Assembly: GCF_014196225.1 (NCBI RefSeq)
Contig: NZ_JACIDI010000002.1
Coordinates: 186,001 to 250,000, forward strand
Direction of reading: 5' to 3'
Origin: Bacteroides pyogenes
GTDB lineage: Bacteria; Bacteroidota; Bacteroidia; Bacteroidales; Bacteroidaceae
DNA: 64,000 nucleotides
Shown: positions 560 to 58,351 of the stretch, one piece after another
Position numbering within the stretch: the first letter of the stretch is position 1
How the letters are laid out: the number at the start of each line of letters is the position of its first letter
Program-made: the position numbers and the translations under genes
The notes under the pieces: generated by a model
The model's input: only the letters and a program-made list of their open reading frames with translations
The model's database searches: none
Told to the model about the DNA's origin: nothing

Positions 560-1879
560 ATGAAGAAAATGATGTTGACACTTGCGGCAGTTTTATTCAC
601 TGAAGCAGGAGATAACCACATAAGGAGCATAAGAAGTTTGTTGACACTTGCGGCAGTTTTATTCGTTGCAGCAGGAAGTCTGGCGCAAAAGAAGGACTTC
701 AGCTACAAGTTTTACGGTCAGGTGCGCACAGACCTTTACTACAACAGCCGCGCAAATCAAGAGACGGTAGACGGATTGTTCTACATGTATCCGAAAGACA
801 AGAACCCCGACCCGGCAGGAAAGGACCTGAACGCCACACCCAACAGCAACTTTTACACACTATACTCACGGCTCGGAGTGAACATCACAGGACCGGAGCT
901 GGGCAATGCCACCACTTCCGCCAAGGTGGAGGCCGACTTCCGAGGCACGGGAAGCAGCTTCTCGGTGGTTCGTCTTCGCCACGCTTATTTCCGGATGGAC
1001 TGGGGAAAAAGCTCCTTATTGGCGGGACAAACGTGGCATCCGCTGTTCGGCGATGTGTCTCCGCAGATACTGAATCTTTCGGTAGGAGCGCCTTTCCAAC
1101 CCTTCAGCCGAGCTCCGCAACTGCGATACCGATATACGGGAAATCACATCCGGCTGACCGGATCTGCCGTATGGCAGTCGCAATACCTTTCGCAGGGGAT
1201 TGATGAAAACAACCCGATGAAAAGCAAAAAGAGCCAGGAATATATAAAGAAGAGCATGGTTCCGGAGCTTTTTGCGGGAATAGATTATCATTCGAAACAT
1301 TTTCTGGCGGGACTCGGCGTAGAGTTTCTCTCAATGAAACCGCGTACACAAGCCACAGGAGCCGACGGGAAAACCTACCGGGTGAGCGAGCGAATCAACA
1401 GTCTGTCTTATGAGGCACACGCCAAATATACCGCGAACGACTGGTTCATCGCCGCGAAAAGCGTATTGGGGTCGAACCTTACACAGACCTCCGGACTGGG
1501 CGGTTTCGGTGTCCGTTCGGTCGATTCAGCAACCGGAGCGCAAAAGTACACCCCGATACGTTTCTCAAGTTCGTGGCTGAACCTTGTATACGGCAAAAGG
1601 TGGAAACCGGGAATATTCGCGGGGTATGCCAGGAATCTCGGCACGCGCGAAGCGCTGCAAGAAGGCACTCCGCTGTACGGAACGGGCACGGATCTGAAAG
1701 ATCTTGCTTCACTCGGCACGGAGCTTACCTATAATACGCCCCATTGGAAGTTCGGCGTGGAATACCTGTACAGCATTGCAAACTACGGGAAAGACATCGA
1801 CCGGAAAGACGGGAAGATGCTCGATACGCATCCGGTGAAAAACCATCGCTTCGTGGCGGCAGCCATGTTCATGTTCTGA
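560..1879 (+). CDS. Porin-like outer-membrane beta-barrel protein
   Basis: The protein has 439 residues from the ATG at 560. A signal peptide is followed by KDFSYKFYGQVRTDLYYNSR and then alternating amphipathic strands to a C-terminal phenylalanine (AAAMFMF), as in outer-membrane barrels. It resembles the DcaP/porin-like proteins common in Bacteroides; no substrate can be read from it. The reading frame stays open upstream to 446, but those codons fall in the repeat array. The N-terminus is odd: the block LLTLAAVLF occurs twice, 22 residues apart, from a 24-base perfect DNA repeat at 575-598 and 641-664. Only the second copy leads into a normal cleavage site (AAGSLAQ), so a non-ATG start near 638 behind AGGAG (623-627) is a real alternative. 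It converges on the lyase gene. Confidence 0.75.
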   Translation: MKKMMLTLAAVLFTEAGDNHIRSIRSLLTLAAVLFVAAGSLAQKKDFSYKFYGQVRTDLYYNSRANQETVDGLFYMYPKDKNPDPAGKDLNATPNSNFYTLYSRLGVNITGPELGNATTSAKVEADFRGTGSSFSVVRLRHAYFRMDWGKSSLLAGQTWHPLFGDVSPQILNLSVGAPFQPFSRAPQLRYRYTGNHIRLTGSAVWQSQYLSQGIDENNPMKSKKSQEYIKKSMVPELFAGIDYHSKHFLAGLGVEFLSMKPRTQATGADGKTYRVSERINSLSYEAHAKYTANDWFIAAKSVLGSNLTQTSGLGGFGVRSVDSATGAQKYTPIRFSSSWLNLVYGKRWKPGIFAGYARNLGTREALQEGTPLYGTGTDLKDLASLGTELTYNTPHWKFGVEYLYSIANYGKDIDRKDGKMLDTHPVKNHRFVAAAMFMF

Positions 1880-6700: not shown

Positions 6701-6942
6701 CAGAGGCTCTGTCCGGCGGAAACAGAGGCTCTGCCAGAAACAAACGGAGCCTCTGTTCGATGCAAACAGAGACTCTGCTCCAAACAAATGCCAAACCCAT
6801 CTGGCAAAGCCACCAAACCAGCTACGAACTGACAGAAGCTCTGCTCCGAACAAATGCCAAATCCATCGGAAGCGAACAGAAAAACTGCATGATAAAAACA
6901 GGGCCTCAGGATGATGTAAACAAAGGCTCTGCTCCTCTTGAG
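6701..6942. repeat. 22-bp phased tandem array, eleven units
   Basis: Units begin at 6701, 6723, 6745, 6767, 6789, 6811, 6833, 6855, 6877, 6899 and 6921, with no phase slip. Many contain the dyad CAGAG-N-CTCTG; others carry a TGCCAAAYCCATC type. Two neighbouring blocks of three units repeat as a 66-bp block: the 35 bases from 6767 and from 6833 agree at 31. The array fills the gap between two minus-strand genes. There are no unique spacers, so it is not CRISPR. Confidence 0.93.
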
Positions 6943-6980: not shown

Positions 6981-8543
6981 TCAACGTCGCATATATTCGT
7001 ACCCGAAACGGCAGTACAAACACTTCCGTTGCTCGCAGTAAGCGGTGCGGAGTTGCACCAGCGCCTGACTGTCCGCCGCCGATGTAACCGCCAGTCCGGC
7101 AGCGCTCCACGAACGGACAATGTGGTTGTCTTCCGCCTTCAGCTCATCGAGAAAACGCAAAGCCCGGTCGCACATACGCTCGTCGGCCTTGTGCAACCCG
7201 TAGGCATACAAGAAAGGAACCACCGTATTAATAATGAGCAAATCAACGGACTTTGCGCCTAAAGCTTTCTCACGGCGAGGCGACGGTTTGTGAAACAGGT
7301 AATGCTCCGTCCAGTAGTCTGACGTGCGAGCGGCAAGCATTCCTCTCACCGTTTCGAGTGTTTCGCCCTCCATCAGGCGGGAGAACAGCGTGCTGCCCGA
7401 CCGGTAGAGCCATGCCAACTGCGCCAGACGGATGTGCGGAAAGTTACCGGGACGAAGTCGGAGAAGCCGCCAGTCGGACGCTTGCATCTGTGCGTCAAAG
7501 CCGAATTTATGACGGAGATAACGGTACTCTTTCTGCAAGCGGAAGTAATATTCATCAGCAGGCAAATCCTTGGAGGATGCTTGCTGAAACGCCCTCTTCG
7601 GCAAACCGGCATGGACATCCTTCTCTGACAAACCGTCGGGAGACGTTGCCCGCAGCGCATCTTTTTGCAGGCAGGCACAACAGTCGCCCGAAGACAAGTC
7701 CTCCGGAACGGTTTCCAAAGTCGAAGTTGTCCGCGAATGAAGAGGAAGCCCGTCGGTTTTCGCTTCGGCACGCAAGGCATCGGCAGTGCCGGAAGCGGCA
7801 AGATGCGCCGTCTGTACCTGCGGCGTAGCCGGCCGATTCGAAACGTCCTCACGCGAAGCTATTTCGTCGAGCAATCCCGCCTGCCCGAAAAAGAAAGCTT
7901 CGATCTGAAACAAATCATCGCGATGTTTGTCGACCGCGCGGAACGGAAGCGTTCCCGCCCAACGTTCGAACGCGTCTCCGTTCAGTCCGAAACCGAAATT
8001 ACGGGCAAGAGTAACGAAGAAAGCGTCTTCCCAATTCCGGTCGCATCGCTCCAGCCGTTTTCCTATTTGCAGGGCTTTCTGTTGCAGCCTTTCCGTTTGC
8101 AACGAAGTCAGCCACGAGTGTACGACAACCTTCGGCAGCGCTCCGATCACTTCCGTACAACAAGGGTACCGGTCGGCATTGCGCAACTCTTCGTAATGCG
8201 TCCGCACGACATCGGGGCAGTTTAGTTGCAACTGCGGAAGCGGTTCGCCGTCCGGTCGCACGATATCGGCATCCACTTTGCCCGCCACGTGCAGAATCAC
8301 GGAGTCGTAAGCCCGGTCGCGGTCGTGCCCGTGGCGGAACCAGTCGGACGAAAGCGAATGCACTTCGACATTCCCCACCCAAAGCGTTCCGTCTATCTTG
8401 AGCTTCGCATTGAAAAAGTCAGGCCCTGCATTCGAGTTGTGTAAACCGGGATCGATCACTTCTACCGGCAATCCACCGGTGGTTTGCAACGGCTGCAAAG
8501 GGAATAATTTGTGTTTCCATACGTACTGGAGAAGGTGTTCCAT
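6981..8543 (-). CDS. DUF2851 family protein with internal repeat expansion
   Basis: 520 residues, soluble, no signal peptide. The N-terminal half (PVEVIDPGLHNSNAGPDFFN, WVGNVEVHSLSSDWFRHGH) is typical of the DUF2851 family, common in Bacteroidetes and of unknown function. The family is usually about 420-430 residues as I recall. The excess lies in one stretch, about residues 230-330, made of diverged 22-residue units. LQKD (L292), LPKR (L314) and the likely native LQKE (L336) recur at exact 22-residue spacing, each preceded 9-10 residues earlier by LSSGD, LSEKD or LPADE. At the DNA level this is a 66-bp repeat (7529-7800). The frame is intact. It is divergent from dapB. Confidence 0.9.
   Translation of the reverse strand: MEHLLQYVWKHKLFPLQPLQTTGGLPVEVIDPGLHNSNAGPDFFNAKLKIDGTLWVGNVEVHSLSSDWFRHGHDRDRAYDSVILHVAGKVDADIVRPDGEPLPQLQLNCPDVVRTHYEELRNADRYPCCTEVIGALPKVVVHSWLTSLQTERLQQKALQIGKRLERCDRNWEDAFFVTLARNFGFGLNGDAFERWAGTLPFRAVDKHRDDLFQIEAFFFGQAGLLDEIASREDVSNRPATPQVQTAHLAASGTADALRAEAKTDGLPLHSRTTSTLETVPEDLSSGDCCACLQKDALRATSPDGLSEKDVHAGLPKRAFQQASSKDLPADEYYFRLQKEYRYLRHKFGFDAQMQASDWRLLRLRPGNFPHIRLAQLAWLYRSGSTLFSRLMEGETLETVRGMLAARTSDYWTEHYLFHKPSPRREKALGAKSVDLLIINTVVPFLYAYGLHKADERMCDRALRFLDELKAEDNHIVRSWSAAGLAVTSAADSQALVQLRTAYCEQRKCLYCRFGYEYMRR
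7529..7800 (-). repeat. 66-bp repeat expansion inside the DUF2851 coding sequence
   Basis: Matching positions fall at 7535, 7601, 7667 and 7733, each 66 bp apart, with a weaker unit near 7798. On the coding strand these give 22-residue units. Because 66 is a multiple of three, the frame survives. The unit nearest the C-terminus is probably the native family sequence (YYFRLQKEYRYLRHKFG follows). Confidence 0.85.
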
Positions 8544-12635: not shown

Positions 12636-12811
12636 GCGGGCAGATATGTTCGGCACGGTGGGTATATATGGTCATCACGGTGAGTATATATAGTCAGCTA
12701 TGGTGAGTATATATGGCCAGCATGGTGGATATATATGGCCAGCATGGTAGGCATATATACCCACCGCAGTGCACATATATAATTTATAGGGCAGGCATAT
12801 ATACCTGTAAC
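12636..12811. repeat. 22-bp array, TATATATGG family (locus 1)
   Basis: Units begin at 12657, 12679, 12702, 12724, 12746, 12768 and 12790 (22-23 bp). Most contain GGTGAGTATATATGGYCA or a decayed form. A weaker unit (about 12636) lies 7 bp after the wbqC stop. The same unit family is found at about 33300-33490 and 54460-54640, in the same orientation. The array separates wbqC from the convergent PUL 1. Confidence 0.9.
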
Positions 12812-28005: not shown

Positions 28006-28916
28006 TAGGAATCGGAGAAACTATTCTCGATATCGTCTTTCGGGGAGGGCAGCCTTCGGTAGCCGTTCCCGGCGGATCGGTGTTCAACGGCATCGTGTCT
28101 CTAGGACGAATGGGAGTGAATGTCAATTTCATCAGCGAGACGGGAAACGACCGCGTAGGAAACACTATTCTGCAATTCATGCGCGAGAATCATGTGCCTA
28201 CCGAACACGTAAACGTGTTCCCCGACGGGAAATCGCCCGTATCGCTTGCTTTTCTCAACGAGCAAAACGATGCGGAATATATATTCTACAAGGATTATCC
28301 CAAACAGCGTCTGGATGTGATTTATCCTGTCTTACAGGAAGACGACATCGTGATGGTAGGCTCATACTATGCTCTCAATCCTGTTCTCCGCGACAAGATA
28401 CTGGAACTACTCGATCAGGCGCGCGAGAAGAAAGCTATCATTTATTACGATCCGAATTTCCGGTCTTCGCATAAAGACGAGGCTATGAAGCTGGCGCCCA
28501 CCATTATCGAAAACCTTGAATACGCCGATATCGTACGCGGTTCGGCGGAAGACTTCTTCTACATGTACGGCATGCGCGATGCAGACCGGATATACAAAGA
28601 CAAAATCAAGTTTTATTGCCCCCGGTTCATCTGCACCGCAGGCAGCGACAGCATATCACTCCGCAGCAATACCGTGAGCAAAGAGTATCCGGTAAAACCG
28701 TTGGAAGCCGTCAGCACCATCGGAGCAGGCGATAATTTCAATGCGGGACTGATATACGGACTGCTGAAATATGATGTCCGATACCGCGATCTGGATAATC
28801 TGAGTGAAGCGATCTGGGACAAAGTGATTCAGTGCGCGAAAGATTTTGCCGCCGAAGTTTGTCGCAGTTACTACAATTCGGTGTCCTTGGATTTTGCCCG
28901 CAGCTACTCCGGATGA
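27993..28916 (+). CDS. PfkB family carbohydrate kinase
   Basis: 307 residues from the ATG at 27993, inside the end of the isomerase gene. It has the ribokinase fold: GIGETILDIVF, PGGSVFNGIVSLGRMGV (first PfkB signature region), ADIVRGSAEDF, and STIGAGDNFNAGLIYGLL with the anion hole and catalytic Asp of GAGD. It phosphorylates a sugar; fructose or a related ketose is plausible but not shown. Translational coupling with the isomerase suggests one pathway. Confidence 0.92.
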   Translation: MRKVVGIGETILDIVFRGGQPSVAVPGGSVFNGIVSLGRMGVNVNFISETGNDRVGNTILQFMRENHVPTEHVNVFPDGKSPVSLAFLNEQNDAEYIFYKDYPKQRLDVIYPVLQEDDIVMVGSYYALNPVLRDKILELLDQAREKKAIIYYDPNFRSSHKDEAMKLAPTIIENLEYADIVRGSAEDFFYMYGMRDADRIYKDKIKFYCPRFICTAGSDSISLRSNTVSKEYPVKPLEAVSTIGAGDNFNAGLIYGLLKYDVRYRDLDNLSEAIWDKVIQCAKDFAAEVCRSYYNSVSLDFARSYSG

Positions 28917-33296: not shown

Positions 33297-33494
33297 TGCC
33301 GCTGAAGTGCCTATATACAGGGCACTGCAATATACATATATGGCTACCGCGGTGTACATATATGGCTACCGTGGTGTGCATATATGGCTACCGCGGTGAG
33401 TATATATGGCTACCACGGTGAGTATATATGGCTACCGCGGTGAGTATATATGATTATTGCGGCAGGTATATATCGCAGTCCCGACGGGCATGCA
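33297..33494. repeat. 22-bp array, TATATATGG family (locus 2)
   Basis: Units align at 33297, 33319, 33341, 33363, 33385, 33407, 33429, 33451 and 33473, exactly 22 bp apart. The middle five carry TATATGGCTACCGCGGTG with few changes; the edges decay. It separates the convergent glsA and PUL 2 regulator genes. The remaining bases to 33616 show no gene. Confidence 0.93.
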
Positions 33495-53248: not shown

Positions 53249-54277
53249 TCAATCGGCAAAAAGCGTTTGCTGACTGCTGTACAGGCTGCGCCCCAAATGT
53301 TTATAAGCAAGTTCCGTCACCTCCCTGCCGCGCGGTGTACGCTTCATAAAACCCTCTTTGATGAGGAAAGGCTCATAGACCTCCTCGATGGTTCCGGCGT
53401 CTTCGCCCAGCGCGGTAGCGATGGTAGTCAGTCCCACAGGACCTCCTTTAAACTTGTCGATAATGGTGCACAGAATCTTGTTGTCTATCTCGTCGAGCCC
53501 GTAGCGGTCAATGTTCAGCGCTTCGAGCGAGAACCGGGCAATGTCCGTATCGATGGAGCCTGTCCCTTTCACTTGCGCAAAGTCCCGCACACGGCGAAGC
53601 AGGGCATTGGCTATACGCGGAGTGCCGCGGCTGCGCGACGCTATTTCCGACGCTGCAGGAATGGAGCAAGGCACATCGAGGATGGAAGCGGAACGGCGGA
53701 TGATCGTACTCAGCACATCGTCGTCGTAATACTCCAAGTGCAGATTGATGCCGAAACGCGCGCGAAGCGGAGCCGTAAGCAGCCCGCTGCGTGTGGTTGC
53801 ACCCACAAGCGTGAAAGGACTCAGGTCGATCTGGATGCTGCGCGCCGAAGGACCTTTGTCTATCATGATGTCGATGCGGTAATCTTCCATGGCGGAATAC
53901 AGATACTCCTCCACCACGGGCGACAGCCGGTGAATCTCGTCGATGAAGAGCACATCGTTCGGTTCGAGACTGGTGAGCACTCCTGCCAAATCGCCCGGTT
54001 TGTCGAGCACAGGCCCCGAAGTGATTTTAAAACCCACACCCAGTTCGTTGGCAATGATGTTCGAAAGCGTCGTTTTACCCAATCCGGGAGGTCCGTGAAG
54101 CAGCACGTGGTCGAGCGCTTCTCCGCGCAAACGGGCCGCCTTCACAAAGATGCGAAGGTTGTCCACCACCTTGTCCTGTCCGCTGAAGTCTTCAAAACTC
54201 AACGGGCGAAGAGCGTTCTCAAAGTCGCGTTCTTTCGGACTGAGCTGATGGTTGCGTATATCGAAATCTTCTTCCAT
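53249..54277 (-). CDS. ruvB: Holliday junction branch-migration ATPase RuvB
   Basis: 342 residues from the ATG at 54277, the usual length. The frame stays open a further 82 codons into the upstream 22-bp arrays, but that is repeat DNA upstream of the promoter. Motifs: [11 protein letters not shown], Walker A GPPGLGKT, Walker B DEIH, sensor GATTRSGLL, arginine finger region RGTPRIAN and a winged-helix C-terminus. It drives branch migration with RuvA. Neither ruvA nor ruvC is adjacent. Confidence 0.97.
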
Positions 54278-54305
54278 GTCTTTTCTATCCAAGTATCTAA
54301 CCGGA

Positions 54306-54313
54306 CAAAGATA
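54306..54313 (-). promoter_or_regulatory. -7 element TATCTTTG of ruvB
   Basis: CAAAGATA on the plus strand, 29 bases before the ruvB start and 40 bp from the edge of the 22-bp array. Confidence 0.7.
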
Positions 54314-54352
54314 AGGAATTTCGCACGAAACGGATAATATGTATCGCAATTT

Positions 54353-54462
54353 ATTGCAGAAGGCGGGGCGGAACATCGCAAAAGATGGGGCGGAAAATTG
54401 CAAAAGATGGGAGAGAGTATTGCAGAAGGCGGGAGCGAGCATTGCAGAAGCAGTCATCGTAC
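54353..54462. repeat. 22-bp array upstream of ruvB, five units
   Basis: ATYGCARAAGRYGGG units begin at 54353, 54375, 54397, 54419 and 54441, exactly 22 bp apart. It runs directly into the TATATATGG array that follows. Confidence 0.92.
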
Positions 54463-54642
54463 AGGGTATATACCCCCCTCGTGGTGAACATATATATCCA
54501 CCGTGGTGAGTATATATACTCATCCCCCATGACTATATATGGCTACCACGCTGAGTATATATGGCTACCACCCATGACTATATATGCTCACCACCCATGA
54601 CCATATATGTATCCGACACACGCCCATATATACGTGCCTCGA
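54463..54642. repeat. 22/23-bp array, TATATATGG family (locus 3)
   Basis: Units marked by (G/C/A)TGA-TATATA begin at 54484, 54506, 54529, 54551, 54574, 54597 and 54620, with one weaker unit before. Two contain TATATATGGCTACCAC as at locus 2. It lies in the divergent gap between ruvB and the SpmA/SpmB-like gene; this is the only family shared between loci. Confidence 0.9.
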
Positions 54643-58176: not shown

Positions 58177-58351
58177 ATACGGCTTTTCGGAGAAAGCCCT
58201 TGAGCATTCCTGTAAAAACCCACGAGCGTTCTTGTGAAAACCCACGAGCGCTCTTGTGAGAACCACGAGCGTTCCTGTGGAAACCCACGAGCGCTCTTGT
58301 GAAAACCCACGAGCGTTCCTGTGAAAACCCACGAGCTTTTATTTGAAAACA
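58177..58351. repeat. 22-bp array seeded at the 3' end of the TonB receptor gene
   Basis: CACGAG marks units at 58221, 58243, 58264, 58286, 58308 and 58330 (22, 21, 22, 22 and 22 bp), with decayed units at 58199 and 58177. The unit at 58330 overlaps the stop and last codons of the receptor gene (stop at 58339-58341). Units contain CACGAGCGYTCYTGTGAAAA. Confidence 0.93.

Follow-up and report, generated by a model that had tools for sequence, protein, structure and literature searches.

Our analyses suggest that, on balance, Bacteroides pyogenes has a naturally occurring insertional mutator in CRISPR adaptation: Cas1–Cas2 would paste fragments of the bacterium's own chromosome at sites throughout the genome, making in-frame segments in MutS2, a GH20 enzyme, the signal peptide of a porin-like protein and the DUF2851 protein that vary in unit number between strains. 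The insertions have a repeat–insert–repeat architecture with defined lengths and ends, they have empty sites and self-derived inserts, whole units differ between strains in three genes, and the species carries CRISPR systems of matching dimensions. From these features we infer that Cas1–Cas2 is the agent of the ectopic insertions. Coordinates without a contig name refer to the window, the 64,000-nucleotide stretch of contig NZ_JACIDI010000002.1 that was analysed; C1, C2, C4 and so on are contigs of the same strain unless marked DSM 20611.

The DUF2851 gene and its repeated unit

The DUF2851 protein matches the PF11013 profile with an E-value of 6e-148 and 493 bits, against a gathering score of 25, in two stretches split by an insert. 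The gene contains the following features.

6981–8543, minus strand: DUF2851 (PF11013) gene, 520 aa, from the Pfam profile match
7578–7859, minus strand: clade-specific in-frame insert, residues 229–322, absent from about 80 Bacteroidales homologs and predicted to be disordered
7644–7709, minus strand: extra 66-bp unit 1 (VPEDLSSGDCCACLQKDALRAT), from the ungapped unit alignment
7578–7643, minus strand: extra 66-bp unit 2 (SPDGLSEKDVHAGLPKRAFQQA), from the ungapped unit alignment
7512–7577, minus strand: native unit copy (SSKDLPADEYYFRLQKEYRYLR), conserved in the family, from the homolog alignment
7567–7698, minus strand: 132 bp (two units) that the DUF2851 gene of B. pyogenes DSM 20611 lacks, from the strain alignment

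A sequence-only reading of this DNA had noticed that LQKD, LPKR and LQKE recur exactly 22 residues apart in the protein and that the DNA repeats every 66 bp. The spacing is as described, and the DNA repeat is borne out by units at 7512–7709 whose score was reached by 0 of 3000 codon shuffles. Pairwise DNA identity among the three units is only 29–32 of 66 positions (about 45%), which explains why they escape Tandem Repeats Finder. At lag 66, the three-copy statistic reaches 101/198, compared with a codon-shuffle mean of 68 and a maximum of 86 (3000 shuffles); with any in-frame lag of 45–90 allowed, 0 of 400 codon shuffles reached the observed value, and the protein score of the units is 51 versus a null of −23 ± 11. 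A 22-bp sub-period is absent from these coding units (23% at lag 22). Residues 229–277, extending up to about 7859, are part of the insert and hold no significant repeat. Homology between them and the 66-bp units was considered and rejected, as the score was reached by 661 of 2000 shuffles for DNA and 660 of 5000 for protein.

Sixteen columns are identical across the three units and are confined to 43 bp, leaving a gap of about 23–24 columns (p = 0.008); unrelated spacer in part of each unit would be expected to produce such a gap. The units are too decayed, at about 45% identity, for the borders of repeat and spacer to be legible, and a free 36/30 split into repeat and spacer is not significant (p = 0.18). 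The putative spacers matched no source in the 46% of the strain's own genome searched, and the units are too old for one to be expected.

Among the residues that never vary in the family are GPDF..A and G.VE.H, which are reminiscent of a PD-(D/E)XK nuclease core. A fold search of the protein against the PDB returned no match with E ≤ 0.001, and a literature search on the function of DUF2851 or on 22-bp Bacteroides arrays gave nothing useful.

The insert in the DUF2851 family

The sequence-only reading had taken the family to be about 100 residues shorter and devoid of the repeated block, and this proved correct: about 80 Bacteroidales homologs, mostly of 421–440 aa (some up to 466), lack about 94 residues and pass directly from FGQAGLL.. 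to ..DEYY..LQKEY at the site where B. pyogenes carries the extra residues. Among 160 genomes of the genus, the insert was found only in that of the window strain and in one other (G095), which appears to be B. pyogenes DSM 20611, to judge from the identical position of the gene on contig C33. In three other Bacteroidales loci (L034, L036 and L069), unrelated low-complexity expansions occupy the same linker, which therefore tolerates insertions. These three expansions are independent repeats of about eight residues or of KNKE type. In the AlphaFold2 model, the pLDDT is 90 or above over most of the chain and falls below 50 at residues 229–327, so the insert is predicted to be disordered.

Comparison with DSM 20611

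The DUF2851 gene of DSM 20611 shares 97.5% nucleotide identity with that of the window strain and is exactly 132 bp shorter, with the junction in a conserved patch of the unit. Between the strains, pS is 4.5% in the insert and 5.2–5.7% in the core, while pN is 9.4% and 0.7–1.0%, respectively, about a tenfold difference. The insert is therefore near-neutral rather than hypermutated, and a raised mutation rate was rejected as an explanation, given that pS matches the core. Divergence between the units amounts to about 0.9 substitutions per site (Jukes–Cantor), many times the synonymous divergence of about 0.05 between the strains, and thus the units predate the strain split. The array had been read as growing away from a native C-terminal unit. 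The homolog alignment upholds the identity of that unit as native, but the difference between the strains is not growth: the two divergences speak against the window strain having acquired two units after the strains parted, and on the sequence comparison DSM 20611 most likely lost two units.

Alignment of 186 kb between the two strains revealed indels of 3, 4, 6 and then 132 bp in undisputed coding sequence; the other larger ones are located either in an ORF crowded with repeats or in the stretch that extends the RuvB ORF at its 5′ end. The intergenic indels include 43, 44, 66 (three cases), 131 and 133 bp. When the scan was replicated on new stretches, the leading coding lag was again 66 bp, and MutS2 and the GH20 enzyme emerged as further cases. 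MutS2 carries two units in the window strain against one in DSM 20611, a difference of exactly 66 bp; the GH20 enzyme has three units in DSM 20611 and two in the window strain, and again the difference is exactly one 66-bp unit.

Anatomy of the insertions

The features in the window that bear on the anatomy and origin of the insertions are the following.

6766–6867, no strand: fresh CRISPR-like insertion just downstream of DUF2851, with 36-bp copies at 6766–6801 and 6832–6867 and a 30-bp insert at 6802–6831
574–675, plus strand: 66-bp insertion that keeps the frame of a porin-like ORF (560–1879) and falls within its signal peptide, comprising a 36-bp repeat (33/36 identical) and a 30-bp insert
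11–496, no strand: intergenic array of 66-bp period in which the whole unit is present about seven times, immediately upstream of the porin-like gene
28148–28184, no strand: source, in a gene of the strain itself, of the 35-bp insert at C2:283758 (37-bp exact match)

The MutS2 insertion, which is missing in DSM 20611 and in nine other Bacteroides, is not a 66-bp duplication. It consists of 36 bp copied exactly from the native sequence and 30 bp foreign to the native gene. Similarly, the insertion at 6766–6867 faces a single-copy empty site in DSM 20611, from which it differs by exactly 66 bp. In both cases, only 36 of the 66 bp are duplicated, and similarity over the whole unit is found in secondary copies, such as the GH20 units of DSM 20611. 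The array at 11–496 is also similar over the whole unit and would need later amplification of units. The porin signal-peptide insertion is common to both strains and missing in homologs. Further 36-bp duplications were located at C1:517, C4:1929 and C4:136014 (30-bp insert) and at C1:160434 (29-bp insert). A second class of ectopic loci combines about 27–32 bp with 34–39 bp, and the locus at C2:283758 differs from DSM 20611 by 68 bp.

It had been proposed that whatever produces the 66-bp steps between genes works in coding DNA too, with the frame kept. MutS2, the GH20 enzyme, DUF2851 and the porin support this, the DUF2851 array being a probable product of the process. Growth by plain tandem units does not hold, as the fresh cases consist of a 36-bp target duplication with an unrelated or self-derived 30-bp fragment.

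On the genome scale, a scan of 1.55 Mb (46% of the window-strain genome) left 72 two-copy loci once the 22-bp families had been taken out, and 62 of these have a period of 62–69 bp. Two control Bacteroides (400 kb) yielded no two-copy locus at lag 62–69, and 52 other Bacteroidales loci (365 kb) yielded none at lag 63–67. No isolated locus was seen at lag 77, the value for the type II repeat length (47 + 30), in the 1.55 Mb. Three repeat–spacer pairs, representing both classes, lie within 420 bp at C2:84181–84601, which looks like an insertion hot spot.

Origin of the inserted fragments

The inserts of the ectopic loci share no common sequence. Matches elsewhere in the strain's own chromosome, in the 46% of the genome searched, were found for 10 of the 62 inserts versus 2 of 124 flanking controls, and both matching controls sit in one cluster of such insertions. 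Most inserts (52/62) have no source in the part of the genome searched, and none of the 31 spacers of true arrays matches the strain's own chromosome. In the best cases, the source match stops at the insert borders: the 30 bp in MutS2 match C1:229331–229302, inside an ORF, exactly and end there. Another of these cases is the insert at C2:283758, whose source lies at 28148–28184. The first 28 bp of the porin signal-peptide insert match DSM 20611 C5:141010 exactly, and the insert at 6802–6831 matches DSM 20611 C5:145032–145058 over 26 of 27 bp.

CRISPR systems of the species

In the window strain, Cas13b and Csx27 adjoin a type VI-B array (C2:1011–2231) whose repeat is 36 bp and whose spacers are 29–30 bp long. 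Cas9 and Cas1 adjoin a type II array, in which a repeat of 47 bp alternates with spacers of 29–30 bp. DSM 20611 also has a type I-B system with a repeat of about 29 bp and spacers of 33–40 bp, which looks complete, with 35 repeats; the contigs concerned in this comparison are C8 of the window strain and C25 of G095. The lengths of the two ectopic classes are thus those of the VI-B unit (36 + 29–30) and of the I-B unit (about 29 + about 36), and the 47-bp type II repeat length was not seen among the ectopic sites. The only Cas1 found in the window strain is that of type II; because a type I-B Cas1 was not found there, the ~29/36 class would go back to an earlier condition of the strain, or else the assembly would have a gap.

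The ends of the 36-bp duplications agree with the arrays as well. The five exact ones have 25 of 30 matches to GNTG, compared with a random mean of 7.3, a value reached by 0 of 20000 random sets. G-N-T-G, read inward from both ends, is also present in the VI-B (GTTG..CAAC) and type II (GCTG..CAGC) repeats. No clear motif was seen at the ends of the ~29/36 class, and no PAM emerged.

Discussion

We consider it probable that ectopic Cas1–Cas2 spacer integration, followed by gain and loss of units, explains the 66-bp step, which would then be the repeat-plus-spacer unit of CRISPR spacer integration outside CRISPR arrays. The integrase would capture a fragment of about 30 bp (or about 36 bp), often from the bacterium's own chromosome, and insert it into a chromosomal site. 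The target, 36 bp with G-N-T-G ends or about 29 bp in the second class, would be duplicated as a CRISPR repeat would be, yielding repeat–spacer–repeat with a 66-bp period. Within genes, 66 bp would mean 22 extra codons in frame, which may persist in linkers and signal peptides, and later recombination between the repeats would gain or drop whole 66-bp units. The II-C Cas1–Cas2 may serve the 36/30 class and the type I-B enzymes the ~29/36 class. Several observations weigh against this reading: the illegible borders of the DUF2851 units and the lack of a match for their putative spacers in the genome part searched, the missing 47-bp length among ectopic sites, the type I-B Cas1 not found in the window strain, the unclear ends of the ~29/36 class, the 52 of 62 inserts without a source in the part searched, and arrays such as 11–496 that would call for later amplification of units.

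The DUF2851 units may be an old, decayed R1-S1-R2-S2-R3 array in which R3 is native and from which DSM 20611 would have lost two units. An old array of the CRISPR-like kind is in keeping with the 66-bp unit, the preserved frame, the restriction to one clade and the whole units lost. We lean towards such an origin for this array, with less assurance than for the genome-wide mechanism.

For DUF2851, the simplest alternative is that a 66-bp stretch in a tolerant linker was doubled twice by replication slippage and then diverged, with no link to CRISPR. The unrelated low-complexity expansions at the same place in L034, L036 and L069, the near-neutral evolution (pN 9.4%, pS 4.5%) and predicted disorder of the insert, and the lack of clear repeat/spacer borders in the decayed units are all compatible with this. 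We nevertheless regard it as rather unlikely, since simple slippage accounts poorly for the clustering of the identical columns (p = 0.008), for the fresh coding case in MutS2, where 36 bp are joined to an unrelated fragment, and for the 66-bp mode being missing in the control genomes. Another possibility would be a small mobile element or a different integrase that duplicates a target of about 36 bp while inserting fragments of about 30 bp, its CRISPR likeness being convergent. In its favour, Cas1–Cas2 is a putative agent, and the ectopic sites do not show the 47-bp length of the type II repeat. However, CRISPR arrays of this very strain share the target length of 36, the insert length of 29–30 and the GNTG ends, and the inserts, unlike a mobile element, share no common sequence, so that we hold it to be improbable.

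A process with a quantum of 22 bp, or two helical turns, could also be imagined to build all the arrays, coding DNA retaining only the multiple divisible by three (66). Intergenic tandem similarity does peak at 22, 44, 65–66, 88, 110 and 131–132 bp in the 730 kb of the window genome scanned, and several unrelated 22-bp families exist. For the coding cases this process is disfavoured: the coding units show no sub-period of 22 bp, taking out the 22-bp families still leaves 62 of 72 two-copy loci at 62–69 bp, and the GNTG-ended target duplications and self-derived inserts would be left unexplained. We judge it very unlikely.

Short insertions that lengthen proteins in frame are known from the Rickettsia palindromic elements, which are copies of one palindromic family. 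In B. pyogenes, by contrast, both the duplicated target and the inserted fragment differ from one insertion to the next. Nivala, Shipman and Church reportedly described off-target (non-canonical) CRISPR spacer integration in 2018. The two phenomena agree in that spacer-length DNA enters outside arrays and a target of repeat length is duplicated. Unlike the events of Nivala et al., those of B. pyogenes are natural, number 62 loci in 46% of the genome, vary between strains, are often filled from the own chromosome and lengthen conserved proteins in frame. Off-target spacer integration is already known, as cited in PMC9456107 and PMC11687729; judged against the open-access literature, the natural genome-wide scale, the filling with the strain's own DNA and the lengthening of conserved proteins without loss of frame appear to be new. 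In Flavobacterium columnare (PMC8092290), a VI-B array depends in trans on a II-C Cas1–Cas2 for its spacers, self spacers among them. Our proposal resembles that system in the presence of II-C and VI-B in one genome, in II-C acquisition genes serving VI-B repeats and in self-derived spacers, while the F. columnare spacers enter arrays and the B. pyogenes inserts enter genes and intergenic DNA.

If ectopic integration is the correct reading, the CRISPR acquisition machinery would be a standing source of host mutation and protein novelty, beyond immune memory; the 36 + 30 unit happens to equal a whole number of codons. It would also explain strain-variable 66-bp steps that are otherwise filed as tandem repeats. 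The genome would be full of readable integration events outside arrays, which would allow direct tests of how Cas1–Cas2 selects its targets, where self-derived fragments come from and how new CRISPR arrays arise.

The 22-bp arrays deserve a separate description. Several unrelated unit families of 22–23 bp are dispersed over the genome, for example at 12644–12758, 33336–33473, 54507–54609 and 58202–58350 of the window, and weaker signs of 22-bp quantised intergenic similarity were seen in other Bacteroides. These arrays resemble the BrickBuilt elements of Porphyromonas gingivalis (PMC4596501), which are likewise strain-variable intergenic tandem arrays of Bacteroidales; BrickBuilt elements differ from the insertions described here in having a 23-nt unit inside a MITE, in being always intergenic and in lacking the repeat–spacer anatomy. 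At 54352, a 66-bp difference to DSM 20611 lies inside a 22-bp array immediately upstream of ruvB, and the longest ruvB ORF (53249–54523) runs into that array.
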